From NCBI GenBank assembly GCA_021795355.1, contig JAJYPL010000003.1, forward strand, positions 28,591 through 81,014: DNA of 52,424 bases. The letters are read 5' to 3'. The notes under the pieces are model-generated. The model searched no databases and had not been told where the DNA came from. It worked only from the letters and a program-made list of their open reading frames with translations. This stretch comes from a bacterium (GTDB taxonomy: Bacteria; SZUA-79; Acidulodesulfobacterales; Acidulodesulfobacteraceae). The position numbers and the translations under genes were made by a program. Below, piece by piece: positions 6,649-22,442 of the stretch (position 1 is its first letter; each line of letters opens with the position of its first letter).

Positions 6649-6688
6649 TTTTCTTTTTCCAACAAGATATTTTTATTTAAAAATTAAA

Positions 6689-7045: not shown

Positions 7046-7052
7046 ATTTAAA

Positions 7053-7265
7053 TCACCTCTTTATGTTTATTTTTTTAATTTGTTCAGAAAATGGGGTTAT
7101 TTTATTGGATTCTAAATATTGCTCAATGTCGCTTATCCGGAGCAGAATTTTAGACTTTACGCGGTATGCGGTTATCTCTCGATTATTCACCATTCGTCTA
7201 ATTGTATCCTTATGGCAATTTAGGTATTTTGCGGTTTCGGTAATATCTAAAAATTGAGTTTCCAT
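7053..7265 (-). CDS. Excisionase-family helix-turn-helix protein
   Basis: This 70-residue protein has the HTH_17 pattern: FLDITETAKYLNCHKDTIRRMVNNREITAYRV followed by a strand and the ISDIEQYL helix. Such proteins are excisionases or small regulators. It is the first gene of the leftward run, seven bases before the accessory gene, and 1.7 kb from the tRNA attachment fragment. It could direct excision or control the transfer operon. Confidence 0.75.
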   Translation of the reverse strand: METQFLDITETAKYLNCHKDTIRRMVNNREITAYRVKSKILLRISDIEQYLESNKITPFSEQIKKINIKR

Positions 7266-7292
7266 TTTATCTAAGAATTTAATTAGTAATAA

Positions 7293-7325
7293 TTTTAGTT
7301 ATATATTATGATTATATAACTAAAA
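7293..7325. promoter_or_regulatory. Perfect 13-bp inverted repeat (operator candidate)
   Basis: TTTTAGTTATATA and its exact complement flank a 7-base centre, 28 bp upstream of the leftward operon and in the divergent region shared with the repressor gene. It is well placed to bind the excisionase-like protein or the repressor. In RNA it would be a weak AT hairpin with no following U-run, so an operator is more likely than a terminator. Confidence 0.5.
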
Positions 7326-7397
7326 AATAAAATGTCAAGCGTATTCTTAATTTTTTTAATTTGATTTAAAAATAATTTAAAATATATAGAGTAGTTG

Positions 7398-7444
7398 CTC
7401 AATACTCAAGCTTCGCTTGAATTGAGACCTGCGGTGCTATTGAG
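7398..7444. promoter_or_regulatory. GC-richer nested hairpin, transfer-origin (oriT) candidate
   Basis: CTCAATA (7398-7404) pairs with TATTGAG (7438-7444) around an inner hairpin CAAGC-TTC-GCTTG (7408-7419), followed by ACCTGCGGTGC. It is the only GC-rich patch in a 270-base AT-rich intergenic region upstream of the mobilization genes. Relaxase origins typically have an inverted repeat followed by a nick region. This is a structural candidate only; no known nick consensus is matched. Confidence 0.35.
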
Positions 7445-7454
7445 TAGATTTGTC

Positions 7455-7486
7455 TTGATAGTGTTTTTTAATTAATGTAATATAAT
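7455..7486 (+). promoter_or_regulatory. Promoter of the repressor gene
   Basis: A -35-like TTGATA (7455-7460) and a perfect -10 TATAAT (7481-7486) are separated by 20 bases, longer than ideal. They lie 50 bases upstream of the repressor ATG. Confidence 0.45.
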
Positions 7487-7535
7487 CTGATTAAATAACT
7501 TTAAATATTACTATCCTAATTTACTATTCTTAATT

Positions 7536-8330
7536 ATGAAAAAAGCTGTCTTTGAAATAATTAAAGAAATAAGGAAAGATAAGAATATCTCGCAAGTAGA
7601 GCTTGCCAAAAAATTAAATACAACACAAAGCTACATAGCACAAGTTGAATCCGGAAATAGAAAATTATCTCAAAAAAGCTTACAGAAAATATTCAAAGCC
7701 TTAAACGTTCCAGACGATGAAATTTTAAGTATTCTTTCCGATGAAAACTTTAAGTTAGTTAAATTATCTGAATTTATTATTAGAAATAAAAAAGATTTAA
7801 AAAATCTTTCAGAACATATATTTTTACCTTACCGGTTAAGCTATGAACTCGTTTTCATTAAAAGGGAATTAAGCGCAATTGATAAAGAACCTGAATTTTA
7901 CGCCTATATTATGCCAGACGATTCGATGTCGCCAGAGATTAATGAAGACGATATTTTAATTATTCATTTTTTAGATTTTGATTTTTTAAGTGAAAATTCA
8001 TATTTAGTTTTAGACAGTAACCCTTTTGTTACAGTTGTAATTAAAGAAAACACCGGAATTGACGTAGTTGACGAAGAATCTGGCTATATAAGAAAAGCAG
8101 CTCTTATAAATCTCACAGATGACTTTCCTATAAGCTCCTTAAATTCGATTAATCCTGAACATGAAAGCTTTATCGTTGAATCCGAAAAAAAATATACAAA
8201 ATTTAAACGTGATAATACTACCGGTAAAATGACCGGCATTGTTGATAAATTTGGAGAAGTACAAATTAAAGGAATAGTCGTAGCAGTCATTAAAGAAAAA
8301 ATTATTTTTCCTAATGAATGGGGCATATAA
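7536..8330 (+). CDS. LexA/CI-like repressor (XRE HTH + S24 peptidase domain)
   Basis: This 264-residue protein has an N-terminal XRE helix-turn-helix (about 5-62, with QVELAKKLNTTQSYIAQVESG) and a C-terminal S24-type self-cleavage domain (about 120-255). In the latter, Ser130 in MPDDSM and Lys170 in VTVVIKE fit the catalytic Ser/Lys pair. It would repress the element's transfer or excision genes until autocleavage is induced by DNA damage. It is transcribed divergently from the mobilization operon across a region containing inverted repeats. Confidence 0.8.
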   Translation: MKKAVFEIIKEIRKDKNISQVELAKKLNTTQSYIAQVESGNRKLSQKSLQKIFKALNVPDDEILSILSDENFKLVKLSEFIIRNKKDLKNLSEHIFLPYRLSYELVFIKRELSAIDKEPEFYAYIMPDDSMSPEINEDDILIIHFLDFDFLSENSYLVLDSNPFVTVVIKENTGIDVVDEESGYIRKAALINLTDDFPISSLNSINPEHESFIVESEKKYTKFKRDNTTGKMTGIVDKFGEVQIKGIVVAVIKEKIIFPNEWGI

Positions 8331-8372
8331 AAATATATTACTTTTAATTATATATTATCGCTAAAAATATGC

Positions 8373-8394
8373 TATAATTCTAATTAACGAGGTG
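8373..8394 (+). promoter_or_regulatory. -10 element and ribosome-binding site of hicBA
   Basis: TATAAT at 8373-8378 and GAGGTG at 8389-8394 precede the antitoxin ATG by seven bases. No clear -35 was seen. The short leader suggests a dedicated promoter for the pair. Confidence 0.55.
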
Positions 8395-8401
8395 TAAAAT
8401 C

Positions 8402-8614
8402 ATGGATGAAGTAATATTCTTAGTGGAAGAAGACCTTGAATCCGGTTATACGGCCAAAGCTCTCGGATATTCCATTTTTACGGAAGGGGAAACGATTGCG
8501 GAGCTGAGAGAAAATATTAAAGACGCCCTGGAATGCCATTTTGATAATAAAGCGGATATTCCTAAAATAATCAGGCTTCACCAATCCAAAGAAGAAGTTT
8601 TTGCCTATGTCTAA
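8402..8614 (+). CDS. hicB: HicB-like antitoxin
   Basis: This 70-residue protein matches the short HicB fold: an initial strand VIFLVEEDLESGYTAKALG, then a helix beginning TIAELRENIKDALECHF. It would neutralise the HicA-type RNase encoded next, whose start lies inside its last codons. No C-terminal DNA-binding domain is present. Its place just inside the attachment site is typical of element-stabilising toxin-antitoxin cargo. Confidence 0.75.
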   Translation: MDEVIFLVEEDLESGYTAKALGYSIFTEGETIAELRENIKDALECHFDNKADIPKIIRLHQSKEEVFAYV

Positions 8615-8852
8615 AATTCCGCGTGATATTTCTGGTTTAGAATTAGCAAAACTGCTGTCTAAATACGGTTATAATACTGAACGGCAAAAGGGCAGCCACA
8701 TAAGATTAACGACTAATTTCAATAATGCCGAACATCATATAACAATACCGGATAAGGATTCGATTAAAATCGGAACGCTCAATAATATCCTTATCGATGT
8801 TGCCGGATTTCTCGGCATAGATAAAAAAGAGCTGATTGAAAAATTATTTTAA
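8607..8852 (+). CDS. hicA: HicA-like toxin (mRNA interferase)
   Basis: This 81-residue protein has the dsRBD-like HicA pattern: SGLELAKLLSKYGYNTERQKGSHIRL, with the catalytic histidine in GSHIRL, then HHITIPDKDSIKIGTLNNIL. I use ATG 8607 rather than the upstream TTG at 8601. It overlaps hicB by eight bases, so the two are translationally coupled in antitoxin-first order. It would cleave mRNA when HicB is lost. Confidence 0.8.
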   Translation: MSKIPRDISGLELAKLLSKYGYNTERQKGSHIRLTTNFNNAEHHITIPDKDSIKIGTLNNILIDVAGFLGIDKKELIEKLF

Positions 8853-9238: not shown

Positions 9239-10123
9239 ATGTTGAAAAATCATATTGTTTATTTTCCGGGCTGCGTAAATTCTTTCGAACGCAAAACAAA
9301 AACAGAAAACATTTTTAGGGCATTAGACATAGATATTAAGCCGGTTTCGGAATGGAACTGCTGCGGCGCTCCGCCCTCGCATTATAAACCCGATTTTTTT
9401 AACAAAGCGGTAATGCCCCTTAGAAATTTAGGTTTATGCCAGAATGTCGGCGAAAATTTTTTATATTCCGGCTGTTCGGTATGCGTAAATCAGATAAACG
9501 AATCCGTTAAACTTATAAATTCCGATTCAATGTTTAAAAAACAGGCGGATTACAGTCTGAATCCGTTTAATGCGCGGCTTAAAGAATCGGATCCTTCAAA
9601 GACGGGAGCGATTCACGTTATAGATATTATCGCAGATGCCGCCGTCGAAAATAAACTGCTGAAAGCCGTTCCGTCGAAAATAAAAGGGGACTCCATACTT
9701 CTTTATGCAGGATGTTATAAAAACGAAGCTAAAATCGAATCTTTAAAAAAAATATTCAATATTATGGGCGCCGAAGTTAATATTTTTAACGATTGCTGCG
9801 GAGGCGAAAAATTGCAAAATATGACCCCGGTACATTCCAAAAGAATTGAAAACGCAAATATAGCCGATAATTTTTTCAAACTGATAAACAAAAAAGCCGA
9901 CGAAACAAATTCAGACTATATAGTCACGGTTTGTTCCATGTGCGAAAAAAATATAGACGACGGTATGAAATTATCGGATTTAGATGTATTTGCGCCGGTA
10001 ATAGGCTTAATAGAATTTATCGGTTTCATGCTTGGTATTGAAGGCTGCGGAGAAATATTAAACGGTATACTGCCTTGCGGAGTTAAACATAAAAATGCAG
10101 AGTTAGAAGAGTGCCGGATATAA
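9239..10123 (+). CDS. CCG-domain (HdrB-like) redox protein of the molybdoenzyme island
   Basis: This 294-residue cytoplasmic protein has two complete CCG cysteine motifs: FPGC, NCCGAPPSH and SGCSVC in the first half, YAGC, DCCGGE and VCSMC in the second. In HdrB these bind noncubane [4Fe-4S] clusters and reduce disulfides; relatives serve as electron-transfer subunits in SdhE, LctE/GlpC and similar enzymes. It lies 33 bp upstream of the molybdoenzyme and probably passes its electrons to or from a thiol/disulfide or quinone. It is more divergent than the other two paralogues in the window. Only a weak Shine-Dalgarno precedes the ATG. Confidence 0.8.
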   Translation: MLKNHIVYFPGCVNSFERKTKTENIFRALDIDIKPVSEWNCCGAPPSHYKPDFFNKAVMPLRNLGLCQNVGENFLYSGCSVCVNQINESVKLINSDSMFKKQADYSLNPFNARLKESDPSKTGAIHVIDIIADAAVENKLLKAVPSKIKGDSILLYAGCYKNEAKIESLKKIFNIMGAEVNIFNDCCGGEKLQNMTPVHSKRIENANIADNFFKLINKKADETNSDYIVTVCSMCEKNIDDGMKLSDLDVFAPVIGLIEFIGFMLGIEGCGEILNGILPCGVKHKNAELEECRI

Positions 10124-10155
10124 AAAAATACTTTAATTAAAACGGAGGTAAAAAA

Positions 10156-12699
10156 ATGGATTTTGAGGAGTTAAAAAACGAAAAGTTCATGCGCGTGAAA
10201 GATAACAGGCTTATAAAAATAAAGCCCGATCATCGCCCGCAGGAATCAACGAAAGAATACGACACGGTACGTTATTCCACATGCACCAATATGTGCGAAA
10301 GCGGATGCGGACTTAAAATATTCTTGAAAGACGGCAAAATAGTCGATGTTATGGGAGACCCGGAACATCCGCAGAACAGAGGCGGCCTTTGCTCTAAGGG
10401 CGTCGGTCAGATTCAGTGGTGGTACGACCCCTTAAGAGTACATCATCCGATGATAAGAAAATCTTTAACAGACGATTTTAAAAGGGTTTCATGGGATGAT
10501 GCGCTTGATTTTGCGGCTGAAAAATTAATAAAACTTCATGACGAATACGGTCCCGAGGCATTGACCGTTTTCAGGACGGGAAGATCATCTTTCGGCAATA
10601 AAGAAGGCGGCGCGAGATTCGGCAGGATATTCGGCACGCCTAACGTTTACGGGCAGGGACCTATCTGCTGCGAAAGCCCGGGCGTATCCATGAACTACGT
10701 TTTCGGCGCAAAAGGACTCGGCAGGCTTATGAATCCTACGCAGGATTGGAAAAACTCTAAATGTATTCTCGTAGTAGGGACGAATATGGCGGCGCAGGAA
10801 ACTATAACGATGACGCACCTTCTCGATGCAAGAGATAACGGCGCATTTTTAATAGGCGTCGACCCGCGTTTCAACGCAACGCTTTCAAAATGCGATATAG
10901 GAATGAGAATCCGTTCCGGTTCCGACGCTATATTGTTTTTAGCTATGGGCAATATCATAATAAAAGAAAAACTTTACAACAAAGAATTTGTGGATAAATG
11001 GGTTGAAGGTTTTGAAGAATATGCAAAAGAATGCGCCCAGTGGACGCCTGAAAGAGCCGAAAAACTTACATACGTTCCAAAAGAAATGATTATAGAAGCC
11101 GCAAGAAGATTCGGTTCCGCAAGACCGGCATCGGTAACGGGTAACCTTGGAACGGCGCAGATTTATAACTCCAACAACGTAAACAGGTCCATAGCGGCAT
11201 TGCTAGCTCTTACCGGATCTATAGGCGTTAAAGGCGGCGGCTGGAACTGGCTGCATAACTGCCGTCCTCCTCTGAATTACGGACACGATTTAAAAGATCT
11301 GCCGGATTTTAAAAGACCGCAGATAACAGACAAATTAATATCCTGGGGAGACAGTTCGGTGCCTTGCATAATAAATGCGATGATGTATGAAAAACCGTAT
11401 CCTGTTAAGGGTATTATATGGAACGGCGACCATTTGCCGCAGTTTCCTAATTCTTGGAAAATGGAAGAAGCGATGAAGAAAAATATAATCAATATTCATC
11501 TTTCCATATATCCAAATCATACGTATATGTTCAGCCACGTTGCGTTTCCTATAGCAATCTCCGTAGAAACCGACAGCGTATGCCATCACGGAAACAACAG
11601 GCTTCTTCAGTGGCACAATAAAATAATACCTTATCAGCATGAACACAGGGCAGATATCGACGTTTTCGACGGTCTCGCAAAAAGGCTTAAAGGCAAAGCC
11701 GGACATTTCGACAAAGTTGAATTTAATCCGTGGGGTTACTATAAAGAAGGTCCGGATAAAGGAAGAGTAAACGAAATTAAAATGACCGACTTCTTTAACG
11801 AACAGGAATCGTTTACGAGGGGTATTACATACGAACTTCTTAATCCGGAAAAAAACCCGAAAGGCGGTTTAATGTGGCCCGTTATGTCGAAAGAAGAAGC
11901 GGTATTTCAGGACGATGAAGCTGTTTTAAGGGGCAAATGGATAATGTATAAAGAAGGAGAAAATTACCCTGAATCCGACAAGAGATTTCCGACGCCTTCC
12001 GGCAAAATCGAATTAGCTTCCGAAGCCTTGGAGAAAATAGGCTGGTACAAAGTTCCCACGCAGGTTGAAGGTTCCGAATCGCCTCTCGGAAATTTTGAAA
12101 GAGCCAAGAAGTATCCGTTAGTACTGAATACTACCAGAATAGCGCAGTCCTTCCACGAAGGAGGCCACTGGTGGCCGTGGAACGACGAACTCGAACCCGA
12201 CAGAAATATAGAGATAAATCCTACTACCGCAGCGGTTATGGGCATCGAAGACGGGGACATGGTTATAGTAGAAAACGACAGGGGATGGGTTGAAGGTCCG
12301 GCATGGGTAACCGAAATGGTACCTGAAGACGGAATATGGGCAAACTTCGGGTTTGACAGATATCAGCCGTTTCATCCGTATGAATCTATTAATACCGTTA
12401 TAGACGATATTATAAAAGACCCGGTTTACGGCCAGATACAGTTCAAAGCCGTCCTTTGCAGGGTTTATAGAAAAGGCGATACCGATCCGGATACTACCGC
12501 AAAAAAGACGCTTGAATTTTTACAGAAAAGATTTCCGGAAGTTTGGGATCCTAAGCACCAGGACAAAAATGTTATCGTAGGCAAATGGAAAAATCACTGG
12601 AAAGAATATCATGAACTTAGCATAGGCTGGAAAAAGCTTGTTAATTTTAAAGAGCCTGTCGAATGCACGCCGGTTTCCTGCGATATTCGTAAATATTAA
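10156..12699 (+). CDS. Molybdopterin oxidoreductase catalytic subunit (DMSO-reductase/CISM family)
   Basis: This 847-residue enzyme has an N-terminal [4Fe-4S] site (Cys43, Cys47, Cys51, Cys79 followed by SKG). The Mo/W-bis-MGD domains carry a ligand Cys171 or Cys172 in GQGPICCESPG after GTPNVYG. The C-terminal dinucleotide-binding domain starts near FERAKKYPLVLNTTR. There is no Tat signal, so it is cytoplasmic. A cysteine ligand places it nearer the thiosulfate/polysulfide reductase, formate dehydrogenase and acetylene hydratase branches than true DMSO reductases. Substrate is not evident. A strong GGAGGT precedes the start. It is co-directional with an Fe-S subunit and a CCG protein but no membrane anchor. 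Confidence 0.85.
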   Translation: MDFEELKNEKFMRVKDNRLIKIKPDHRPQESTKEYDTVRYSTCTNMCESGCGLKIFLKDGKIVDVMGDPEHPQNRGGLCSKGVGQIQWWYDPLRVHHPMIRKSLTDDFKRVSWDDALDFAAEKLIKLHDEYGPEALTVFRTGRSSFGNKEGGARFGRIFGTPNVYGQGPICCESPGVSMNYVFGAKGLGRLMNPTQDWKNSKCILVVGTNMAAQETITMTHLLDARDNGAFLIGVDPRFNATLSKCDIGMRIRSGSDAILFLAMGNIIIKEKLYNKEFVDKWVEGFEEYAKECAQWTPERAEKLTYVPKEMIIEAARRFGSARPASVTGNLGTAQIYNSNNVNRSIAALLALTGSIGVKGGGWNWLHNCRPPLNYGHDLKDLPDFKRPQITDKLISWGDSSVPCIINAMMYEKPYPVKGIIWNGDHLPQFPNSWKMEEAMKKNIINIHLSIYPNHTYMFSHVAFPIAISVETDSVCHHGNNRLLQWHNKIIPYQHEHRADIDVFDGLAKRLKGKAGHFDKVEFNPWGYYKEGPDKGRVNEIKMTDFFNEQESFTRGITYELLNPEKNPKGGLMWPVMSKEEAVFQDDEAVLRGKWIMYKEGENYPESDKRFPTPSGKIELASEALEKIGWYKVPTQVEGSESPLGNFERAKKYPLVLNTTRIAQSFHEGGHWWPWNDELEPDRNIEINPTTAAVMGIEDGDMVIVENDRGWVEGPAWVTEMVPEDGIWANFGFDRYQPFHPYESINTVIDDIIKDPVYGQIQFKAVLCRVYRKGDTDPDTTAKKTLEFLQKRFPEVWDPKHQDKNVIVGKWKNHWKEYHELSIGWKKLVNFKEPVECTPVSCDIRKY

Positions 12700-12715
12700 A
12701 ATTAATCAATTTACG

Positions 12716-12744
12716 ACGGTGACGGAATTAAATTCTGTCACCGT
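12716..12744. repeat. Family A palindromic repeat (copy 1)
   Basis: Arms of 14 bases (ACGGTGACGGAATT against AATTCTGTCACCGT, one mismatch) surround a single central base. The preceding CAATTTACG resembles the CAATTTTGTG flank of the other copies. It lies in the 157-base gap between the catalytic and Fe-S subunit genes. Confidence 0.75.
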
Positions 12745-12754
12745 ATTAAAAAAG

Positions 12755-12813
12755 CCGGAAATTTGTATAGAAAATTCATTACAACAAGATAATTATAATA
12801 TGCAAATTTCCGG
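12755..12813. repeat. Long-loop inverted repeat
   Basis: CCGGAAATTTG (12755-12765) is exactly complementary to 12803-12813 across a 37-base AT-rich loop. It directly follows the family A palindrome and precedes the Fe-S subunit. It could modulate readthrough between the two genes. No U-tract is present, so a classical terminator is unlikely. Confidence 0.55.
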
Positions 12814-12856
12814 ACGTTAAAAAAATTTAACTTAAATAAAAAATAGGAGTATAAAT

Positions 12857-13513
12857 ATGTCTTCGGAATACGGATTTGATAGAGTTCACCTTGGAGAAGA
12901 AAGAGCTTCCAGGATCACCCTGAAGTCCTCCACTCCAAAATATTCGATGAAGGTCAATATAGACAGATGTATAGGATGCATGTCTTGCGAAGTCTCGTGT
13001 AAAAAAGAGCATAACCTTCCTGTAGGTCCCCGCAGAATGAGGGTTATACAGGTCGGTCCTTATTTTATAAAAAAAGGACAGCTTAAAACGGTATATCTTC
13101 CAATGAACTGTTTTCACTGCGACGATGCGGCTTGCGTTAAAGCCTGTCCTACCGGTTCTATGCAGAAAAGAGCCGACGGTATAGTGTTCAACGATCCCAA
13201 CACCTGTATCGGTTGTAAATCCTGCATACACGCTTGTCCTTTCGGTTCTCCGCAGTTTAACGAAGCGACCGGAAAGGTAACGAAGTGCGATTACTGCAAA
13301 CACAGAATTGACGCAGGACTTTTGCCGGCATGCGTAACTTTATGTTCGACCGATGCATTATGGTTCGGCAATATAAACAGAATATCGACTATAGACAGAG
13401 AGAAGACCGCCAGAAAATTAACGGAACATTTATTCGGTTTTGTCGCTCCTCATTCAAGCCAAATGGGAACGTCTAACGCAAACGATACCGATAATCCGGT
13501 AAAAGTAGGATAA
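12857..13513 (+). CDS. Four-cluster Fe-S subunit of the molybdoenzyme (NrfC/DmsB-like)
   Basis: This 218-residue protein has four cysteine motifs: CIGCMSCEVSC, CFHCDDAACVKACP, CIGCKSCIHACP and CDYCKHRIDAGLLPACVTLC. This is the layout of the beta subunits that wire DMSO-reductase-family enzymes to a partner. It lacks a C-terminal membrane helix and is not followed by an NrfD gene, so electrons probably leave through a soluble protein. AGGAG precedes the start. Confidence 0.85.
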   Translation: MSSEYGFDRVHLGEERASRITLKSSTPKYSMKVNIDRCIGCMSCEVSCKKEHNLPVGPRRMRVIQVGPYFIKKGQLKTVYLPMNCFHCDDAACVKACPTGSMQKRADGIVFNDPNTCIGCKSCIHACPFGSPQFNEATGKVTKCDYCKHRIDAGLLPACVTLCSTDALWFGNINRISTIDREKTARKLTEHLFGFVAPHSSQMGTSNANDTDNPVKVG

Positions 13514-13565
13514 TTGAAGATGTTTATATTTGTAAAAATATTAAAATAAAACAAGGAGGTTATTT

Positions 13566-13811
13566 ATGGCAGAGGCACTAAAATCGGGAACCGTTTATAA
13601 TGCGCCTATAAGAGTCGATTATATAAACGGAGACTTCGACAAGGCTGAAGAAGCATTAAAAAAAGAAAAAATTCATATACTCGGAAGAAACGTTGCAAGC
13701 GTTACGCCCTATCATGCAACTATATTCGTAAGTTTAGAGGAAGAAGATAAAGCATTAAAGGCTGTTAAAAAAGCGGGAATTAAAACATATCCCGTAGAAC
13801 CATATTTTTAA
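13566..13811 (+). CDS. Small ACT-like protein of the molybdoenzyme island
   Basis: This 81-residue protein has a predicted strand-helix-strand-strand-helix-strand order: APIRVDYINGDFDKAEEALKK, then HATIFVSLEEEDKALKAVKKAGI. That resembles ACT-type ligand-binding domains. AAGGAGG precedes its start and a 20-bp hairpin follows, so it ends the structural part of the operon. It could sense a small molecule or help assembly. The fold is a guess from pattern; no exact family is recognised. Confidence 0.65.
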   Translation: MAEALKSGTVYNAPIRVDYINGDFDKAEEALKKEKIHILGRNVASVTPYHATIFVSLEEEDKALKAVKKAGIKTYPVEPYF

Positions 13812-13817
13812 ATTAAC

Positions 13818-13865
13818 TTTAAACAATAATAGCCGTCGATAGTTTGACGGCTATTATTGTTTAAA
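13818..13865. terminator. Strong 20-bp hairpin between the enzyme and cofactor genes
   Basis: A perfect 20-bp stem (with AATAGCCGTC against GACGGCTATT) and an 8-base loop lies seven bases after the ACT-like gene. On the + strand the stem is followed by A residues, not U, so it is not a textbook intrinsic terminator in that direction; on the minus strand a U-tract follows. It may act as an mRNA 3'-end stabiliser or partial terminator that lowers expression of the cofactor genes. Confidence 0.6.
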
Positions 13866-13880
13866 AAAAATAAAAACTTT

Positions 13881-15170
13881 ATGCAAGATAAAAAAACCGC
13901 TAAAACATTACTCGATATTACCGCAGAAAATATTAAAAAAATTAAGGACGGCGAAATTATTTCCGTCGAAAATTCACTCGGCAGAATAATATCGGAAAAT
14001 ATAATTCCGCAAAACGAAGTTCCTCCTTTTATAAGATCCGCGGTTGACGGTTTTGCGGTTATATCGGGCGATTTTTTAGAAAAAAAAATCGATAAATTCA
14101 GAGTGGAAAATCAAATAACGGCCGGATATTCTAAAGAGATAAGACCGCTTAATTCGGGAGAAGCCGCTTTCGTAACTACCGGCGCTCCTATTCCGCCCAA
14201 TGCCGACAGCGTAGTCTTAATAGAAGACGCAGAAGAATATGCCGGCGGTTATATGGTTTACAAAAAGAAAATCGAAAAGGGTTCGTATATATCTCCTATA
14301 GGAGACGACATAAAGGCCGGAGAAGTTCTTTTTAAGAAAGGCCATAGAATAAGGTTCTGCGATATTGCCGCCTTATCAGGCATCGGAATGAGTTCGGTTT
14401 CCGTTTATAAAAAACCTTCGGTAGGAATATTGTCCGGAGGAAACGAACTGACGCCGCCCGGCGAAAAGTTAAAAACAAATAAAATATACGATATAAATAC
14501 GACGGTTCTTAAATCTTTAGTGTCGGATGCCGGAGGAGTTCCTGAAGTAATAGGCGCGGTCGAAGACGATTTTGAAAAATTAACGCAAACATTAAAAAAA
14601 GCCGATGAGTCTTCAAAATACGACCTTATTGTTTCTACCGGCGGAACCGGCGCCAGTTTTTTAGTTTTGGAAAATAAAGAGATAAAAAATTTTTACGACC
14701 TTGTTCCTTCCGCTATAGAAAAGACTGGAAAATTATTGTTTCACGGGGTAAAATTAGTTCCCGGCAAACCTACGTCGTTCGGCATGCTTAATAACGGAAC
14801 GCCTATTTTTGCGCTTGCGGGTTGGCCATATTCGGTTCTTATTACGTTTGACCTGTTCGTAAGGCCTGCTATTCAAAAAATGTCCAACTATAAAGACCTG
14901 TATAAAAGATACCCCTCCGTTAAAGCCGTTTTAAAAAATGATATAATAAAAGAAGATGGCGTAAGAAAATATTTTCAGGTCAAGTTAACTAAAAGCGGCG
15001 GTTCGTTATATGCGGAAGTAATATCCGCGCCTAAGCCTCCGTCTGCCGCAAGATCTTTAAGTCCGATGATAAATGCCGACGGGAGTTTTGTTATGGAAGA
15101 GCATATCGCGCATTTAAAAGCCGGATGTTTTATAGACGTTACGTTAAACGATTACGAAATCGAAGGTTAA
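13881..15170 (+). CDS. moeA: Molybdopterin molybdenumtransferase MoeA
   Basis: This 429-residue protein has the MoeA pattern: N-terminal ALD-like segment SLGRIISENIIPQNEVPPFIRSAVDGFAV, the central MoCF domain with STGGTGAS, and a C-terminal beta domain. It inserts molybdate (or tungstate) into adenylylated molybdopterin. The motif PPFIRSAVDG replaces the commoner P-FD-S-MDG. The longest frame begins at a TTG inside the preceding hairpin; I use ATG 13881. It heads the cofactor half of the island, 13 bp before the moaA-like gene. Confidence 0.85.
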   Translation: MQDKKTAKTLLDITAENIKKIKDGEIISVENSLGRIISENIIPQNEVPPFIRSAVDGFAVISGDFLEKKIDKFRVENQITAGYSKEIRPLNSGEAAFVTTGAPIPPNADSVVLIEDAEEYAGGYMVYKKKIEKGSYISPIGDDIKAGEVLFKKGHRIRFCDIAALSGIGMSSVSVYKKPSVGILSGGNELTPPGEKLKTNKIYDINTTVLKSLVSDAGGVPEVIGAVEDDFEKLTQTLKKADESSKYDLIVSTGGTGASFLVLENKEIKNFYDLVPSAIEKTGKLLFHGVKLVPGKPTSFGMLNNGTPIFALAGWPYSVLITFDLFVRPAIQKMSNYKDLYKRYPSVKAVLKNDIIKEDGVRKYFQVKLTKSGGSLYAEVISAPKPPSAARSLSPMINADGSFVMEEHIAHLKAGCFIDVTLNDYEIEG

Positions 15171-15182
15171 TAAAAAATAATT

Positions 15183-16028
15183 ATGAAACAGTATTTATTT
15201 GAATTATTTGAAAATAAAGAATACGATTCAAATTTTGAAAGATTTAAATTTAAAATCCCGTCCTTAAGGGTTTCTCTTTTAGGCAGGTGCAACGAAAACT
15301 GTTTTTACTGCCACAACGAAGGCGTTCCCAAAAAAATTTCTTCGATTATTCGGACCGGCGATATAATAAACGTAATATATTCGCTTAAAGGTTTCGGACT
15401 TAAAAAAATTAAATTTACCGGCGGCGAACCCCTGCTCTATAAAGATTTAAAAAATCTTTTGTATAAGGTCAAACATATCAATGATTTAAAACTATATATT
15501 ACGACGAACGGCACTCTTATAAGGAAAAGAATTAAAGACATTAGCCCTAATATTATAGATAAAATATCCGTAAGTTTAGATACGTTAGACCCGAAATTTT
15601 ATAAATATATTACGGGCAAAGACTATTTAAACGAAGTTCTTTCAGGGCTTCAGATGCTAAAAAATTTCGGTTATAACGTAGAAATAGACGCCGTTTTGCT
15701 GAAAAATATAAATTCCGCAAAGGCGTCTTTAAACGAATTAATAGATTATTGCGTAAATAACGGTTTTGATTTGCAGTTTATAGAATTATCCAACGAAGAA
15801 ACCGGCGAGGCGCCGTATTCTAAGTTTTATGCCGACCCTTACGTAACGTTAAAAAAAGCAGGATTAGATTTTTCAAACGACGATACGAACGACAGGCAGT
15901 TTTTTAAAATTAAAAATTCTAAAATTACGCTATGCAGAAAGGTAAGCGACGTCTGCAAATCTACAGGGGACAGATGCAGCGGACTGAGGCTTCTGCCTAA
16001 CGGCGTTCTTAAAAATTTTTATTATTAA
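15183..16028 (+). CDS. moaA: MoaA-like radical SAM protein with altered C-terminal cluster
   Basis: This 281-residue protein has the radical-SAM CxxxCxxC site (Cys36, Cys40, Cys43), FTGGEP and the MoaA-like barrel, suggesting GTP 3',8-cyclase activity for molybdopterin. It is about 45 residues shorter than usual MoaA. The canonical second-cluster motif CxxCx13C is not kept: aligning RCSGLRLLPNGVLKNF leaves Cys265 only, with Gly at the -3 position and Phe279 in place of the last cysteine. Extra Cys251 and Cys258 give a C-x6-C-x6-C arrangement. The usual GG end is absent. It may be a rewired MoaA or a MoaA-derived enzyme. Confidence 0.75.
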   Translation: MKQYLFELFENKEYDSNFERFKFKIPSLRVSLLGRCNENCFYCHNEGVPKKISSIIRTGDIINVIYSLKGFGLKKIKFTGGEPLLYKDLKNLLYKVKHINDLKLYITTNGTLIRKRIKDISPNIIDKISVSLDTLDPKFYKYITGKDYLNEVLSGLQMLKNFGYNVEIDAVLLKNINSAKASLNELIDYCVNNGFDLQFIELSNEETGEAPYSKFYADPYVTLKKAGLDFSNDDTNDRQFFKIKNSKITLCRKVSDVCKSTGDRCSGLRLLPNGVLKNFYY

Positions 16029-16051
16029 ATATTTGAGGTAAATAAAATTAA

Positions 16052-16537
16052 ATGATAGTCGAACTGAACGGAAAAGAAGCGGGATTAACGTTTGAATGTA
16101 TGCATATAGTGCCGGGAAGAGGAGACTGCTCAAGAATACATCCGCATTTTCATTACGTGGACGTTTTGATTGACGGAGAATTCGACGATAAAAGAAGGAT
16201 AGTCCATCTTTATAACTTAAAAGCCGTTATAAAAAGAATATGTTCTACGTTTGAGGATAAAATATTAATAGCGGATTATCCCGAAAGCGTTCAGCGCATT
16301 ACCGTAGAAGAACAGCATTACAGGATAGAAATTAACGGCAAAATATATCTTATACCGAAAGCCGATATTTTTAAAATAAAGTGTCCGTCGTTAAATATCG
16401 AAGATTTGACTGTTTATTTTGCCGGCGAACTTGCTGCAGATTTAAAAAACAAGGAAATGTTTAACCCTATAAATTATTTTGAAGTTACGTTAAGCGAAGG
16501 CCACGGCCAAAGAGGCAGAATAAAGATAGAATTATGA
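16052..16537 (+). CDS. Divergent 6-pyruvoyltetrahydropterin synthase/QueD-like protein
   Basis: This 161-residue protein keeps the T-fold signature of the PTPS/QueD family: zinc-ligand histidines in FECMHIV and IHPHFH, the catalytic cysteine in DCSRIHPH, the LKAVIKRI helix and a late glutamate in VTLSEGHGQRG. The usual catalytic DHxxLN reads EDKILI, so Asp remains but His is replaced by Lys. A roughly 30-residue insertion follows. Canonical enzymes act on dihydroneopterin triphosphate; this protein's substrate is unknown. It sits between moaA-like and mobA genes, pointing to a pterin/molybdenum-cofactor role. Confidence 0.65.
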   Translation: MIVELNGKEAGLTFECMHIVPGRGDCSRIHPHFHYVDVLIDGEFDDKRRIVHLYNLKAVIKRICSTFEDKILIADYPESVQRITVEEQHYRIEINGKIYLIPKADIFKIKCPSLNIEDLTVYFAGELAADLKNKEMFNPINYFEVTLSEGHGQRGRIKIEL

Positions 16538-16560
16538 TTGCGGCCGTTTTATTTAATTAA

Positions 16561-17514
16561 ATGCGAAAATTAAGCTGTATAATACTTGCCGGGGGCGAAT
16601 CTAAAAGATTTGGAGAAAATAAAGCTTTCTTTAGTTTTAACGGAAAATCGTTTATAGAAAGAGCGGCCGAAACAGCTTTAAAATTAAGCGGCGAAATAAT
16701 AATTTCGGCAAGAGAAAAAGAAAGCGCCGGACTGTATATCAATGAATTAAAAAATAAGTTAAATATAAATCCTCCTGTAATAGCCGACGATAAAAACTGC
16801 GGCTTTATAGGTCCGCTTAAAGGGATTTACAGTTGCATTAAACATCTTAAAGGCAAATACGTCCTTGTTATGGAGTGCGACGCGCCTTTATTTAATTTTT
16901 CGGCTGCAAAAGAACTTATGGAAAAAATGGAGAAGGAGAACGTAAATGCGGTAGTGCCTTTATGGCCGGATTCTACCGTAGAACCCCTCCTTGGAGTTTA
17001 TAATACAAAAAAAACGGCTGCGGTTTTAGATATTTTAAACGATTACGCATTGAATCTCGAAAAAAATTTTCCTTTTAAGGATTCGGTGAATATTTCAAGA
17101 TTTTTGCCGTCCGTATATTATTACAGTATATTAGATATAATAAGAAAAAATACGGATTTAAAAATTGAATTTTTTATGAATATTAATTCTAAGAAAGATA
17201 TTGAAAATTACTTGTCAGGAAAAATTAATATTGATAAACAAAAATACGCAAAAAGCGTTAAAATAATAAAAGCTAATAAATTTTTTAACATAAAAAATCC
17301 GGAGGGAAAACCGGCGGGAATACTTGCAAATGCTCTCTATTACTGGTGGATATATTCAAAAACGGGAAATTGCATATATTTAAAAAAATCATACGGCTAT
17401 TTTAAAAAAGACGCCGATAAATATTACGCAGGCGGATTAGATTTTATGGGCGGAAAATTAATTAAAACGATACGCGGACATGTAGGCTCATTTAGCGAAG
17501 AAATATGCAAGTAA
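16561..17514 (+). CDS. mobA: MobA-like molybdenum cofactor guanylyltransferase with C-terminal extension
   Basis: This 317-residue protein starts with the nucleotidyltransferase signature LAGGESKRFGENKAFFSFNGKSF and has the MECDAPLF metal site, giving a MobA domain over about residues 1-205. MobA attaches GMP to molybdopterin, needed for the bis-MGD enzyme upstream. About 100 further residues (with AGILANALYYWWIYSKTG and FMGGKLIKTIRGHVGSFSEEICK) are not part of normal MobA and resemble nothing I recognise. It lies 30 bp before the CooF-like gene. Confidence 0.8.
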   Translation: MRKLSCIILAGGESKRFGENKAFFSFNGKSFIERAAETALKLSGEIIISAREKESAGLYINELKNKLNINPPVIADDKNCGFIGPLKGIYSCIKHLKGKYVLVMECDAPLFNFSAAKELMEKMEKENVNAVVPLWPDSTVEPLLGVYNTKKTAAVLDILNDYALNLEKNFPFKDSVNISRFLPSVYYYSILDIIRKNTDLKIEFFMNINSKKDIENYLSGKINIDKQKYAKSVKIIKANKFFNIKNPEGKPAGILANALYYWWIYSKTGNCIYLKKSYGYFKKDADKYYAGGLDFMGGKLIKTIRGHVGSFSEEICK

Positions 17515-17544
17515 ACAAAAATAATTAAATAAAAAGAGGCTGTT

Positions 17545-18093
17545 ATGAGTAAAAAACTTACAAATTTAGAAGAAGATTTAAAGAAAAATCAAATAGAAAT
17601 AATGCTCTACCCGTCAAAATGCGACGGATGCGAAAGCGAAGGCTTCGCGGCTTGCGTAAAAGCATGCGAATCGCATATGGCTCAAAAATACGGTTCAAAA
17701 TATGCCGGGGCCAGAATTAATATAAAAAAGAAAGAAAACAAGTTTTTTCCTCTTATATGCCACAATTGCGACGAGGCGCCGTGCGCCGATGCATGTATGC
17801 CGGGCGCAAGATACAAAGATTTGGAATCGGGGTGGACGGTGACAAACTATAAAAAATGCGTCGGATGCTGGATGTGCGTAATGTCGTGCCCGTTTGGAGC
17901 TATAGAAAGAATAGGAAAAGGCCATTTTGCTTCAAAATGCGACGGATGCTCAGACGAGGATACGCCGAAATGCGTAGAAGCCTGCAAGAAAGGGGCGTTA
18001 AAAAGAATCGGCATCAAAAATTATTCATATGAAAGAAGGCTTTCCGTCGCAAAAAAAATATACGGACCTTATATAAAATCGATATCTAAGTAA
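17545..18093 (+). CDS. CooF-like four-cluster ferredoxin
   Basis: This 182-residue protein has four cysteine groups: CDGCESEGFAACVKAC, CHNCDEAPCADAC, CVGCWMCVMSCP and CDGCSDEDTPKCVEAC. It resembles CooF/HycB-type electron-transfer ferredoxins. It lies 21 bp upstream of an FAD/NAD oxidoreductase, the pairing seen beside CO dehydrogenases and other soluble redox enzymes. Here it probably moves electrons between the molybdoenzyme and NAD(H). Confidence 0.8.
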   Translation: MSKKLTNLEEDLKKNQIEIMLYPSKCDGCESEGFAACVKACESHMAQKYGSKYAGARINIKKKENKFFPLICHNCDEAPCADACMPGARYKDLESGWTVTNYKKCVGCWMCVMSCPFGAIERIGKGHFASKCDGCSDEDTPKCVEACKKGALKRIGIKNYSYERRLSVAKKIYGPYIKSISK

Positions 18094-18114
18094 TATTAAA
18101 AAGGGGATAAGATT

Positions 18115-19440
18115 ATGAAATACGTTATTATAGGAAATTCATACGCGGGTTTATCGTGCGCCGATGCAATCAGGCGCTTCGACAAGTCGGGAGAAGTCGT
18201 AATAATATCTGACGAAAACTACAGGGCTTACGCAAGACCTTTGATTTCATATTATTTGGAAGGAAAAACTACCGACGAAACTATATGGTATAAAGAAGAC
18301 GATTATTACGAAAAAAATAATTTCGATTTAATGCTCGGAAAAAAAGTAGTTTCCGTCGATACCAATGCAAAAAGAGTAGTTTTGGAAGACGGCGCAGCAG
18401 TTAATTACGACAAATTGTTTGTCGGACCGGGCGGAACGCCTTTTATACCCCCGACGGAAGGATTCAATCCCGATTCACCTATGATGGGTACTTTTACCCG
18501 TTTCGACGATGCAAAAAAAATGGAAAAAGCCGCAAAAATGTCTAAAAGAAAAGAAGCGATAGTCGTCGGCGGCGGACTTATAGGACTTAAGGCATCGGAA
18601 GGCTTAAGGGCATTAGGTCTTCATACGACGATAGTCGAATTATTGCCGAGAGTTCTCGGGCTTGCTCTCGACGAAGTATCCGGAAATATTACGTCGAAAA
18701 AGCTTAACGAAAACGGCATAGATACGGCTACCGGAGAAACGGTTGTTAAAATAAATTTAGACGAATCCGGCAATCCCGTCAGCGTTTTATTGAAAAGCGG
18801 CAAAGAATTGCCTGCCGATATAGTCGTTGTCGGCGTAGGCGTAAGACCTAACGTCGGATTCCTCGAAGGAAGCGGAGTAAAAATAGACAGGGGTATAATA
18901 GTCGATAAAACTATGATGACGAGCGTTAAAGACGTATATGCAGGAGGCGACGCCACTGTAATCTACGACGTTATAAACAAACGCCCGAATATAATAGCAA
19001 TAGTTCCGTTGGCGTGCGAGGAAGGAAGGGTTGCGGGAACTAACATGGCCGGAGTTTACAGGGAATACCCGGGAGGTATGGGTTTGAATTCCGTCGAAAT
19101 ATACGGACTTCCGATAGTGACTATAGGTTTAACCAATCCGTCTAATGAAACGCAAAATGTTTACGTCTTTCAGGATGATAAGATTTACAGGAAATTAGTA
19201 TATGACGGAGAAGTGCTTGTAGGAGCCATACTTCTCGGCGATATTTCCGGCAGCGGAATATTATCCGCAATTATCAGGCAGGGATTAAAATGCCTAAAAT
19301 ATAAAGACGAATTTTTAAACGGCAATATATATTCATTCGTTATAGATAACGAATTTGAAATATACAACATAAATGAAGGTTACGCCATAAGGGGAGACTT
19401 TGAAGACCTTCCGGAATTTTCGAGGACTAACTGGCGGTAA
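18115..19440 (+). CDS. FAD/NAD(P)-dependent oxidoreductase (FNOR type)
   Basis: This 441-residue flavoprotein has an N-terminal FAD motif beginning YVIIGNSYAG, an internal NAD(H) motif VVGGGLIGLKASE near residue 145, and the FAD motif VKDVYAGGDA near 275. The family covers NADH oxidase, NirB N-terminus, rubredoxin reductase and the FNOR partner of CooF. No redox-active CxxxxC of disulfide reductases is visible. With the CooF-like gene it would form an NAD-linked electron branch. It ends the 10-kb co-directional run. Confidence 0.8.
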   Translation: MKYVIIGNSYAGLSCADAIRRFDKSGEVVIISDENYRAYARPLISYYLEGKTTDETIWYKEDDYYEKNNFDLMLGKKVVSVDTNAKRVVLEDGAAVNYDKLFVGPGGTPFIPPTEGFNPDSPMMGTFTRFDDAKKMEKAAKMSKRKEAIVVGGGLIGLKASEGLRALGLHTTIVELLPRVLGLALDEVSGNITSKKLNENGIDTATGETVVKINLDESGNPVSVLLKSGKELPADIVVVGVGVRPNVGFLEGSGVKIDRGIIVDKTMMTSVKDVYAGGDATVIYDVINKRPNIIAIVPLACEEGRVAGTNMAGVYREYPGGMGLNSVEIYGLPIVTIGLTNPSNETQNVYVFQDDKIYRKLVYDGEVLVGAILLGDISGSGILSAIIRQGLKCLKYKDEFLNGNIYSFVIDNEFEIYNINEGYAIRGDFEDLPEFSRTNWR

Positions 19441-20108: not shown

Positions 20109-22442
20109 TTATCTGAGTTTTTCCATCAGCGGTTTTTTGATATAGTCCAGCATAATCATGTAAATAAAAGTCGCCGCAAGCAGTATAAATATATATACGA
20201 AAGGAACTTTAGTCATGAGTATGCCGAAACCGGCCATTAAAGTGATAATTATTAAATCTAACGCGCTTGCAAGCATTAAATAGTTTCCCGGTTTAGAACT
20301 CCAGAAATGACGTTCTTCCCTTACTAAATAAACGGTTGCCTGTGCGCTGAATACTAAAGATAAAAACGTAAATGTTTGAACCTCAGGCAAACTCATTCCT
20401 ATCGAGTAATACCCGATATAATATGAAATAAAAGAATAAATCAGCCACGCTCCTGCTATTACGAGAGACGCGGAAACTATAAGTTTTATTTTCCATTTGT
20501 CGGGTTTACGTGAATATACCGCATTGTCTTTTGCTATAGACATAGTGACGAAATCGTTGGCAAAAACAAGTATTAGAATAAGTTTGGGAGTAGTAACGAA
20601 CTTCCCGAAAAATATAAGTCCTAAACTCAAAAAAAGCGCAACCTGAAAAGTTTTTGATATTTTATTTAAAGTATAAGTCAGCATTCTCCTGTAAACCATT
20701 CTGCCGTATTTTACGGCATCCACGATATTTGCAAGACCGGGTTCCGTCAATATCAGGCTCGCCGATGCCTTTGCTACGTCCGTGGCATTAGCTACGGCAA
20801 TGCCGACTTCCGCCTGTTTAAGCGCAGGCGCGTCGTTTACCCCGTCGCCCGTCATTCCGGTAATTTTTTTTAGTTTCTGCAAACCCTGTACGAGATGAAA
20901 CTTATCTTCGGGAAAAACTCCCGCAAACACGTCGCAGCCGGATGGATTTTTAAATTTTTCCTTCGTGCATACGTTGTCTCCAAGGCCGATTAAGCGGGCA
21001 GTCGTTTTAGCGGTGAGTTCCGTATCCCCGGTAACCATACGCACTCTGATTCCTAAATTTTTAAGTTCATTTAATAATTTTTTAGAATCTTTCCTTGGGG
21101 GATCGGAAAGTCCTAGAATTCCAACGGCAAAATATTTATTTTCTTTTTCGTTTTGAATAGTTACAGCTATTACTCTATAGCCCATAGCCTCGAATTTTTC
21201 GGATTCTTCCCTAAGTTTTTTTGCATCGTTTTCGTCAAGATTTTTTTCGACAATTATAGGCGAACCTTTAATCGAACTAATTAATTTTTTTTCGCCTTTT
21301 TCAGATACTTCCAGCAATGCTTCCGCTCTTTTCGTCTGGGGGTCGAACGGCGTAAATTTGACCGTTTTTCCTATTTCCGGCAGGCTCAATTTATTGTTTT
21401 TTATATAAGACAATATAGATAAATCTATAGGGTCCTGCGTAGATTCATCCGATGCCGCAGCCGCATACGCAAAAAGTTCATTTTCGCTGAAAGGTTCAAG
21501 CGTTTTAAAATCTGTAAGAAAAAGCGCATTTTCAGTTAAAGTGCCGGTTTTATCGGAACATAATTCTTCCATAGACGCAATGTCTTCTATTGCGGAAAGA
21601 TGCGTTACCAATATTCCCCTGTTTGCAAGTTCCATCGAAGCAAGCGCGGTAGCCAAAGTAAAAGTAACCGGAAGAGCGACCGGTATAGACGCTACTAAGA
21701 GGATTAAAGCAAAGGGCAGCATTTCGGCAAAATTCAATTTGTATATAAGGGCGTACGCAAGTATTAAAACTACGAGAATGCCGTCTATCATAATAAAATA
21801 GCGTACTATTTTTAAAATTAATTCTTCGATATGTCCCTTAGTTTTTGCAGATTTTATAAGTTCCGCCGTTTTCCCGAAATAGCTTTTTTCTCCGGTCTCC
21901 GTAACTTTGCAGGTAGCTTCTCCTCTTTTAATTACGGAACCGGAATATATAAGACCGCCTTCGTTTCTGTCCACCGGCTGGGATTCTCCGGTCAGAGCCG
22001 ACTGGTCCACCAGTACGCTGCCTGAAATAATTTCGGTATCCGCCGGAACCAAATCGCCCATTCGGACGTGAATCACGTCGCCAGGAACTAACTGTTCGGC
22101 GCTTAATTTAACCCATTTTCCGTCCCTTAATACTCTCGAGATAATTTTAAGCTGTTTTTTTAAAAGTTCGAGAGCTTTTTCCGCCTTGTTCTCCTGTTGA
22201 AACGATATTACTGCGTTAAATAAGATTAAACCGATGATAATATATGCTTCTATGTTTTTCCCCAGTATTAATTCGATAATAAAGGTAAATTCCAACATCC
22301 ATGCTACCGGATTCCAAAATTTTAAAAGAAAAATTTCAATCGGATGCTTTTTTTTCTCTTTTATTTCGTTTAAGCCGTACCTTTTAATTAATTCTTCGGC
22401 TTCCGAAGAAGATAATCCTTTAATTTCTTTGTCCATATCCAT
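20109..22442 (-). CDS. P3A-type proton-translocating ATPase
   Basis: This 777-residue P-type ATPase has ALTGES (about 149-154), the PVALP membrane motif (about 254), phosphorylated Asp297 in CSDKTGTLT, and TGDGVNDAP. It lacks heavy-metal-binding domains and the CPx motif. The length and the opening GLSSSEAEELIKRYGLNEI match plasma-membrane H+-ATPases of fungi, plants and several acidophilic prokaryotes. It would pump protons out at the expense of ATP and help hold cytoplasmic pH. It is transcribed alone, divergent from mobB. Confidence 0.88.
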   Translation of the reverse strand: MDMDKEIKGLSSSEAEELIKRYGLNEIKEKKKHPIEIFLLKFWNPVAWMLEFTFIIELILGKNIEAYIIIGLILFNAVISFQQENKAEKALELLKKQLKIISRVLRDGKWVKLSAEQLVPGDVIHVRMGDLVPADTEIISGSVLVDQSALTGESQPVDRNEGGLIYSGSVIKRGEATCKVTETGEKSYFGKTAELIKSAKTKGHIEELILKIVRYFIMIDGILVVLILAYALIYKLNFAEMLPFALILLVASIPVALPVTFTLATALASMELANRGILVTHLSAIEDIASMEELCSDKTGTLTENALFLTDFKTLEPFSENELFAYAAAASDESTQDPIDLSILSYIKNNKLSLPEIGKTVKFTPFDPQTKRAEALLEVSEKGEKKLISSIKGSPIIVEKNLDENDAKKLREESEKFEAMGYRVIAVTIQNEKENKYFAVGILGLSDPPRKDSKKLLNELKNLGIRVRMVTGDTELTAKTTARLIGLGDNVCTKEKFKNPSGCDVFAGVFPEDKFHLVQGLQKLKKITGMTGDGVNDAPALKQAEVGIAVANATDVAKASASLILTEPGLANIVDAVKYGRMVYRRMLTYTLNKISKTFQVALFLSLGLIFFGKFVTTPKLILILVFANDFVTMSIAKDNAVYSRKPDKWKIKLIVSASLVIAGAWLIYSFISYYIGYYSIGMSLPEVQTFTFLSLVFSAQATVYLVREERHFWSSKPGNYLMLASALDLIIITLMAGFGILMTKVPFVYIFILLAATFIYMIMLDYIKKPLMEKLR

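Follow-up and report, generated by a model that had tools for sequence, protein, structure and literature searches.

Several described enzymes resemble parts of the locus reported here. PsrABC and PhsABC combine a cysteine-type catalytic subunit of the MopB (DMSO reductase) superfamily with a PsrB-type subunit carrying four [4Fe-4S] clusters. AorABC of Aromatoleum aromaticum (structure 8c0z), a tungsten aldehyde oxidoreductase (AOR), is a soluble, NAD-linked metallopterin enzyme. Cytoplasmic formate dehydrogenases (FDH), including FdhF of the hydrogen-dependent CO2 reductase (HDCR), are also soluble and are found with HycB-type carriers; acetylene hydratase (AHy, 2e7z) has a Cys metal ligand and an acidic residue after its second cluster Cys; HdrB and SdhE contain two complete CCG motifs. 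These traits come together in an island of ten genes at positions 9239–19440 of a 52,424-nt stretch of bacterial DNA (hereafter the window; all positions are window coordinates). The island encodes a molybdopterin oxidoreductase (MoOR) with iron-sulfur partners, an NAD module like that of AorABC and genes for cofactor synthesis. It is real and conserved, and lies outside the characterised clades with which it was compared.

In contrast to PsrABC and PhsABC, there is no membrane anchor gene of the NrfD type among the ten genes and no Tat-like (twin-arginine translocation) signal at the MoOR N-terminus, and MoOR occupies a separate branch. The membrane anchor of SoeABC has no counterpart either. 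The ten genes include neither HdrA nor HdrC, in contrast to what might be expected of an HdrB partner. The AorABC catalytic subunit belongs to the AOR family and not to MopB, and AorABC is not known to come with CCG, ACT-like, MoaA-like or PTPS-like genes.

The nearest named contigs are those of metagenome-assembled genomes (MAGs) of Ca. Acidulodesulfobacterales, including Ca. Acididesulfobacter diazotrophicus AP1 and SZUA-79, the latter name being equated with the order in PMC10591310. The genome from which the window comes is 66% complete. Members of the order are described as facultatively anaerobic autotrophs using the reductive tricarboxylic acid cycle that carry dsr, sqr and partial sox genes but lack nuoEFG, from acid mine drainage rich in sulfur and iron (Tan et al. 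2019, PMC6776010).

The ten-gene island and its conservation

Open reading frame (ORF) calling placed ten genes on the + strand, and Pfam and NCBIfam scans named nine of the products. The features are:

9239–10123, + strand: HdrB-like CCG protein (Pfam CCG 53.5 bits in two stretches; two complete CCG motifs)
10156–12699, + strand: MoOR, 847-residue molybdopterin oxidoreductase (Pfam Molybdopterin, Molydop_binding, Molybdop_Fe4S4)
12857–13513, + strand: FeS4, four-[4Fe-4S] subunit of the DmsB/PsrB/ArrB type with 16 Cys (Pfam/NCBIfam DmsB/TtrB-type, solved relatives)
13566–13811, + strand: 81-residue ACT-like small protein (low-confidence fold model; 50% identical homologue in locus L051)
13818–13865, no strand: hairpin of 20 paired bases in the gap between the small gene and moeA (stem-loop scan)
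13881–15170, + strand: moeA (MoeA_N, MoCF_biosynth, MoeA_C)
15183–16028, + strand: MoaA-like radical SAM (S-adenosylmethionine) protein (143.8 bits against a TIGR02666 cut-off of 284)
16052–16537, + strand: PTPS-like protein (Pfam PTPS 32.3 bits, gathering score 22.4)
16561–17514, + strand: MobA-like NTP transferase with a C-terminal extension of about 100 residues (NTP_transf_3 92.3 bits)
17545–18093, + strand: CooF/AorA-like four-cluster electron carrier (NCBIfam PadI-like 68.4 bits)
18115–19440, + strand: FNOR, AorC/PadH-like FAD/NAD(H) oxidoreductase (PadH 286 bits, under the 475-bit cut-off)

ORF calls and domain scans thus confirmed the original prediction of ten genes in one direction, with the gene names it had proposed. 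Intergenic gaps measure 32, 157, 52, 69, 12, 23, 23, 30 and 21 bases. These values place the moeA start at ATG 13881, which is probably correct rather than TTG 13857, because loci L005, L006 and L007 (L handles denote loci and G handles genomes) carry a stop between the two positions. No clear transmembrane stretch was detected in any of the ten products; the maximal 19-residue hydropathy mean was 1.91, in the CCG protein, with 1.80 in FNOR. The proposal of a Cys-type MopB enzyme that is soluble, appears cytoplasmic and lacks an NrfD anchor was supported by domains, tree columns and the lack of a membrane stretch.

In a genome scan that reaches close relatives only, 17 of 22 loci showed the ten genes in the same order and on the same strand. 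Contig ends interrupt the remaining five (L009, L014, L016, L025 and L026), of which L025 and L026 are separate contigs of a single MAG. Chance clustering was rejected on this kept order, which is the conserved neighbourhood for which the original prediction had asked. MoOR was found in 25 of 30 family genomes, with at most two candidates scored per genome; family and wider genome sets overlap, and so do loci L005–L026 and the G-handle genomes, so that locus and genome counts are not independent. Genomes without MoOR are G006 and G018 (both 99% complete), G007 (86%), G010 (59%) and G009, where a contig end truncates FeS4 and the operon is present from the partial FeS4 onward. The PTPS-like protein was found in 27 of the 30.

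MoOR is 89–99% identical across the order. Over the 22 loci identity ranges are 86–97% for FeS4, 79–98% for FNOR, 78–97% for the CooF-like protein (excluding a 33% match in L016, which is a cross-match to FeS4), 52–92% for the MoaA-like, 46–90% for the CCG and 36–88% for the MobA-like protein. Of eleven loci compared, nine have a MoOR that is 89–96% identical, with fourfold sites matching at only 35–46% (26% expected if independent); the two closest loci, L005 and L007, match at 77% and 69% (their MoeA values, an artefact of the wrong start, were disregarded). The fourfold-site divergence of MoOR resembles that of neighbouring genes. Conservation of the protein despite diverged synonymous sites points to purifying selection on MoOR. 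Recent horizontal spread was rejected on the same synonymous divergence.

Upstream flanks, listed for six loci, are alike in L011, L017 and L020 and different in L007, L019 and L021; many of the 22 loci have MobB, Dus and ATPase genes downstream. Gene order thus partly reflects conserved surroundings, and the ten genes stay together even where the upstream side differs. At L020 position 17609 the CooF-like gene aligned over 55% of its length, possibly owing to a frameshift in that MAG. MoOR, FeS4, CooF and FNOR rank high within the window in G+C content at third codon positions; a reading as high expression was dropped because the ordinary genes sdhB, argC and macB are equally high.

Stable stem-loops (z ≤ −3 against mononucleotide shuffles) were found at the small gene/moeA site in 8 of the 12 sequences listed and in the MoOR/FeS4 gap in 14 of 22. 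The stem-loops had no Rfam match, and promoter and terminator scans performed no better than shuffles (31 versus 32.3 and 11 versus 12.3, respectively). A partial terminator dividing the enzyme half from the cofactor half would fit.

Around the island, the upstream stretch 164–8852 is plasmid-like or resembles an integrative and conjugative element, with Pfam-supported Rep3 initiator, TrbL/VirB6-like, helix-turn-helix repressor and HicA toxin-type genes and a relaxase-like gene recognised by reading, without Pfam match. The next large gene downstream (20109–22442, other strand) was read as a P-type ATPase. MobB-like (22599–23141) and MoaC-like (30576–31067) genes, also named by reading, show that cofactor genes are scattered over the window. 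By reading, 31227–34804 holds A and B genes of the fumarate reductase/succinate dehydrogenase type with a gene for an SdhE-type CCG protein after them, and 48380–52417, about 29 kb downstream of the island, holds HdrC-, HdrB-, HdrA- and FlpD/MvhD-like genes, a second CCG system. Tan et al. (PMC6776010) report hdrB2/hdrC2 among the top transcripts; we do not assign these to the 48380–52417 genes.

The molybdopterin subunit

MoOR scored 110 bits with PF00384, 67.4 with PF01568 and 53.9 with PF04879, all over gathering scores, which places it in the MopB/DMSO reductase superfamily. None of the 25 NCBIfam MopB families matched at E ≤ 0.001 (FDH, PhsA, NasC, ArrA, NapA, TorA, QrcB and others) had its cut-off reached. 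The best score was to FDH alpha (274 bits, cut-off 666), PhsA scored 229 bits (cut-off 694), and the best solved match was HDCR FdhF (233.5 bits; 276.4 with a profile).

The N-terminal cluster motif of MoOR is CX3CX3CX27C (C43, C47, C51, C79). An adjacent Cys pair, C171/C172, is found at the ligand position, and either residue is a putative metal ligand. In the MAFFT alignment the ligand column holds C171 and the column of FDH His141 holds C172; in the HMMER alignment these columns hold C172 and E173, respectively. Both programs put H367 in the column of FDH Arg333. All six rows from the order and L051 have H367 there, and the four FDH rows have Arg. Both His141 and Arg333 have catalytic roles in FDH.

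The FDH alpha and FdhF scores raise the alternative that MoOR is an FDH or CO2 reductase variant interconverting formate and CO2 with NAD(H) via the AorC-like flavoprotein. The His following the ligand, present in the four FDH rows, is absent from MoOR in both alignments, as is the Arg of the Arg333 column; the 274 bits are far under the cut-off; and another FDH-like protein with both His and Arg is encoded in the same genome (L003). As described below, FDH also form a separate branch. FDH identity was rejected on the missing His and Arg, the separate branch and the low score, and we regard this alternative as very improbable.

A maximum likelihood tree was built from 25 sequences and 706 columns (LG+F+G4, ultrafast bootstrap), four rows being incomplete PDB chains. 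In it, MoOR of the order joins the L051 protein (support 100), then that of L111 (100), then proteins from Nostoc and Streptomyces plasmids (94). FDH with NasA and a Deinococcus protein form a separate branch (100), as do PsrA and PhsA (98), joined by an Arx-like protein (88), and DmsA with a protein from the window's own genome (87). The motif GGGxxxxHN, which includes H367, is present in 9/9 rows of the MoOR lineage and in 0/16 other rows. MoOR is therefore a MopB lineage outside the FDH/Nas, AHy, Psr/Phs/Arx and Dms groups, and the placement inside a characterised clade that would have refuted the original prediction was not seen in this tree, from which several known clades were left out. 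To our knowledge, no member of this lineage has been characterised. Known MopB lineages are listed in PMC10100899, the main text of which mentions neither SZUA nor "unknown function".

The residue following the second cluster Cys, E48, is unchanged throughout A1 and A4. It stands in the column of the AHy Asp; AHy works through this residue, Asp13. A non-redox hydratase of the AHy type, using a carboxylate beside the second cluster Cys, might be proposed on this ground. The AHy-type enzymes form another branch, on which AHy groups with L112–L114 (76) and with a Caballeronia protein (98) and not with MoOR, and this identity was rejected. FeS4, CooF, FNOR and CCG partners, which are electron carriers, would be odd for a non-redox enzyme, and we give such a hydratase hardly any credence.

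A search for MoOR at a maximal E of 1e-75 matched 26 of 386 genomes, namely the 25 family genomes and G312, with no match in the other 18 genomes of the G312 phylum; among 386 relatives of G312 searched at 1e-90, none outside the family matched except G312 itself. Five of 345 genomes of another phylum matched at 1e-80, G550 best (494.5 bits) and the other four at 271–280 bits. Phylum searches for G060 and G059 covered one genome each. Identity of the L051 proteins, from the distant genome G312, to those of the island is 54% for MoOR, 55% for the Fe-S subunit and 50% for the small protein; the three genes stand in the same order, after which the contig ends. Since the order MoOR-FeS4-ACT recurs there, the conserved core is MoOR, the Fe-S subunit and the ACT-like protein. 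The L111 protein (G550) has no Cys at the ligand position; by reading of L111 1–4557, its gene directly follows those for a corrinoid-type protein fragment and an ASKHA-type activator-like protein. L111 and the two plasmid proteins are the nearest branches to MoOR and share GGGxxxxHN with it.

The Nostoc and Streptomyces plasmid proteins (L116, L117) are 65% identical to each other and 26–27% identical to MoOR and have other gene neighbours. The Streptomyces gene sits in a plasmid arsenic island (L117 1003–10302; arsC, ACR3, ArsO, ArsR). Arsenic being common in acid mine drainage, MoOR might be an arsenic oxyanion oxidoreductase, linked to NAD and acting on arsenite or thioarsenate in the cytoplasm; this 26%-identical sister-lineage enzyme in a resistance island speaks for it. 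Set against it are the Nostoc relative, without an ars gene among 20 annotated neighbours, the window ORFs, where reading recognised no ars genes, a score with ArrA of 93.7 bits (cut-off 1600), and the fact that only three plasmid records match the Nostoc/Streptomyces lineage at E ≤ 1e-60. We consider an arsenic substrate improbable.

Electron-transfer partners and cofactor genes

The two cluster motifs of the CCG protein (C12, C41, C42, C79, C82 and C159, C186, C187, C232, C235), as expected of an HdrB-type protein, comprise ten Cys invariant in 22 rows, the window included. Only two solved structures matched, both HdrB (8rvv_B/8rvu_b, 35 bits). The score with the HdrB equivalog was 36.4 bits against a cut-off of 345, and the protein is 23% identical to the window's own HdrB-like and SdhE-like proteins. 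It might act on thiols or disulfides, a possibility to which we give somewhat less than even weight; its partner could be a disulfide, a persulfide or something else.

FeS4 is closest among solved proteins to PsrB (2vpw_B, 114.8 bits) and ArrB (6cz7_B, 112 bits), and its 16 Cys are all invariant in 22 rows. The 81-residue protein had no Pfam or NCBIfam match. Its AlphaFold2 model, of low confidence (pLDDT 67), shows the elements strand-helix-strand-strand-helix in sequence, as ACT-like folds do, and a fold search with the model gave only weak ACT-like matches, none at E ≤ 0.001. In the residue-invariance comparison, counts for CooF are lowered by truncated rows and the MoeA row is spoiled by the wrong start.

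The CooF-like protein best matched HDCR HycB4 (67.9 bits). FNOR best matched AorC (8c0z_E, 175.8 bits) over residues 1–404, and by reading it has a GxGxxG motif and an acidic residue ending the second strand. Such a residue usually marks a preference for NAD over NADP. The pair thus comprises an AorC-like flavoprotein and an AorA-like carrier, as in an AorABC-type NAD module. NAD is the acceptor of AorABC (PMC10413684). On this resemblance, an NAD linkage of the island enzyme is well supported. Of the linkages originally proposed, NAD(H) has held, a disulfide link is plausible from the HdrB-type sequence of the CCG protein, and no evidence was found for a quinone role, in keeping with the missing anchor.

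Because the pair is AorC/PadH- and AorA/PadI-like, MoOR might instead oxidise or reduce an organic substrate (an aldehyde, aromatic or alcohol), like the NAD-linked AOR and phenylglyoxylate systems. The same module, however, serves the unrelated catalytic subunits of AOR and phenylglyoxylate dehydrogenase and so carries little substrate information, and in the six loci with flanks listed no co-travelling transport or degradation genes were recognised by reading. We rate an organic substrate as unlikely, though worth keeping in mind. Three electron ports encoded together could also mean a flavin-based bifurcating complex, with the CCG protein and NAD as two acceptors of different potential served through the FNOR flavin. 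The operon lacks HdrA, the HdrCBA-FlpD set being the one about 29 kb downstream, and AorC-type flavoproteins are not known to bifurcate. Bifurcation seems quite improbable.

The cofactor half of the operon begins with moeA; its MoeA and MobA-like products are compatible with a Mo or a W enzyme. In the MobA-like protein, NF001457 covers residues 4–216 only, and 13 residues past 215 are invariant in 21 rows. Aligning eight family rows to five canonical MoaA of related genomes showed that the MoaA-like protein keeps the CX3CX2C SAM motif and lacks the C-terminal CX2CX13C motif and the GG tail; in score, C-terminal cluster and tail alike it departs from MoaA (GTP 3',8-cyclase). The PTPS-like protein keeps CX3HPH and H18 (C26, H18, H30 and H32 are invariant in 10 rows). 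It is closest to solved PTPS-type proteins (3m0n/3lze/2a0s, about 59 bits), passes Pfam PTPS and stays under the NCBIfam cut-offs for QueD (27.3 versus 89) and 6PTHBS (46.2 versus 125.5). Distant PTPS-like matches in G232, G229 and G091 (44–54 bits) have no recognised molybdenum genes adjoining.

Canonical MoaA scored over cut-off in 28 of the 30 family genomes (G018, best 92 bits, is without), and a canonical PTPS/QueD-type protein was counted from strong matches in 26. Since these canonical copies are encoded elsewhere in the genomes, the operon proteins are extra paralogues, which fits a special role for them. The gene originally labelled moaA-like is a divergent paralogue rather than a normal moaA.

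Proposed function and significance

Taken as a whole, the island is best explained as one unit encoding a soluble molybdenum enzyme with an NAD module, a CCG side port and its own cofactor maturation, a reading to which we assign a probability of about 0.5. Its central part, a soluble NAD-linked molybdenum oxidoreductase, is likely. In this model a single transcription unit would yield a soluble cytoplasmic enzyme. Substrate chemistry would take place at molybdenum bis(molybdopterin guanine dinucleotide), with C171 or C172 as its protein ligand and E173 and H367 nearby. Electrons would pass from the [4Fe-4S] cluster of MoOR through the four clusters of FeS4 to the CooF/AorA-like carrier and on to the AorC-like flavoprotein, in exchange with NAD(H). 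The HdrB-like CCG protein would form a second electron port, most likely to a thiol/disulfide or persulfide partner, and the ACT-like protein would be a core subunit with a structural or regulatory role. MoeA and the MobA-like, MoaA-like and PTPS-like proteins would mature the cofactor. As a first guess, MoOR would act on a small sulfur compound, inorganic or organic, in view of the HdrB-like CCG protein, the likeness of FeS4 to PsrB and the habitat; this guess is tentative and rather doubtful.

A number of observations weigh against this explanation. MAFFT and HMMER put different Cys residues at the ligand position, and the AlphaFold2 model of MoOR, made from 14 close orthologues, had a pLDDT of 29 and was not used, so that the pocket was not seen. 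SoeA, SreA, TtrA, NapA and NarG are omitted from the tree. Among the redox parts the CCG protein varies most, which is odd for a central port, and AorA (8c0z_C, 44.3 bits) ranks only seventh of 12 among solved matches of the CooF-like protein. Genome G006 (99% complete, 6% contaminated) has intact moeA, moaA-like, PTPS-like and mobA-like genes in order. None of the other six genes lies in that 19.9-kb stretch, and searching the genome gave no MoOR. Cofactor genes can therefore be kept without the enzyme, at least for a while, and those of the operon may serve other enzymes too. The claim that the island has its own cofactor genes stands as far as the MoaA-like and PTPS-like paralogues beside canonical copies are concerned; that they are dedicated is weakened by G006. 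Furthermore, G006, G018 and G007 have dsrA over cut-off and lack MoOR. Conversely, six of the 30 family genomes (G015, G016, G025, G027, G028 and G029, five of them in one genus) gave no dsrA match and all have MoOR. MoOR and dsrA do not co-vary, so MoOR is not simply part of the Dsr pathway. Finally, the substrate is not predictable from the present evidence, in agreement with the original prediction.

With dsrA so distributed, sulfate/sulfite metabolism looks patchy in the family. An apparent in-frame TAG in the dsrA rows was read as a normal stop on the basis of G000, the one genome checked, whose ORF is the full 395-residue frame. DsrA is 67–69% and MoOR 94–95% identical to the same two relatives; since G008 has two dsrA copies, this comparison is no yardstick of rate. 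In G006 contig C34 (L094) the cofactor genes lie between ATP synthase genes and mobB, and a 130-residue ATP synthase c-type gene is present twice.

A literature search, covering few subscription papers, returned no title describing the ten-gene set. The accessible text of PMC4911364, PMC5165239, PMC3949148 and PMC12998232 concerns other, mostly membrane-linked or extracellular enzymes. PMC6776010, in which the order was named, does not treat the enzyme in its main text, supplements aside: none of the terms molybd-, thiosulfate reductase, tetrathionate, formate dehydrogenase, heterodisulfide or SreABC appears.

The island is a testable example of a MopB enzyme joined to an AOR-type NAD module, and of a molybdoenzyme with MoaA and PTPS paralogues tied to it. 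It is a long shot that the MoaA-like and PTPS-like proteins make or modify a pterin other than ordinary molybdopterin, a non-standard pyranopterin in a molybdoenzyme with three ports (NAD, thiol/disulfide and substrate). If true, this would mean a non-standard pyranopterin cofactor for MoOR and perhaps for other enzymes of the genome. The order-wide occurrence of the molybdoenzyme, its slow change and its own NAD route suggest that it serves a core reaction of these uncultured acid-mine bacteria.

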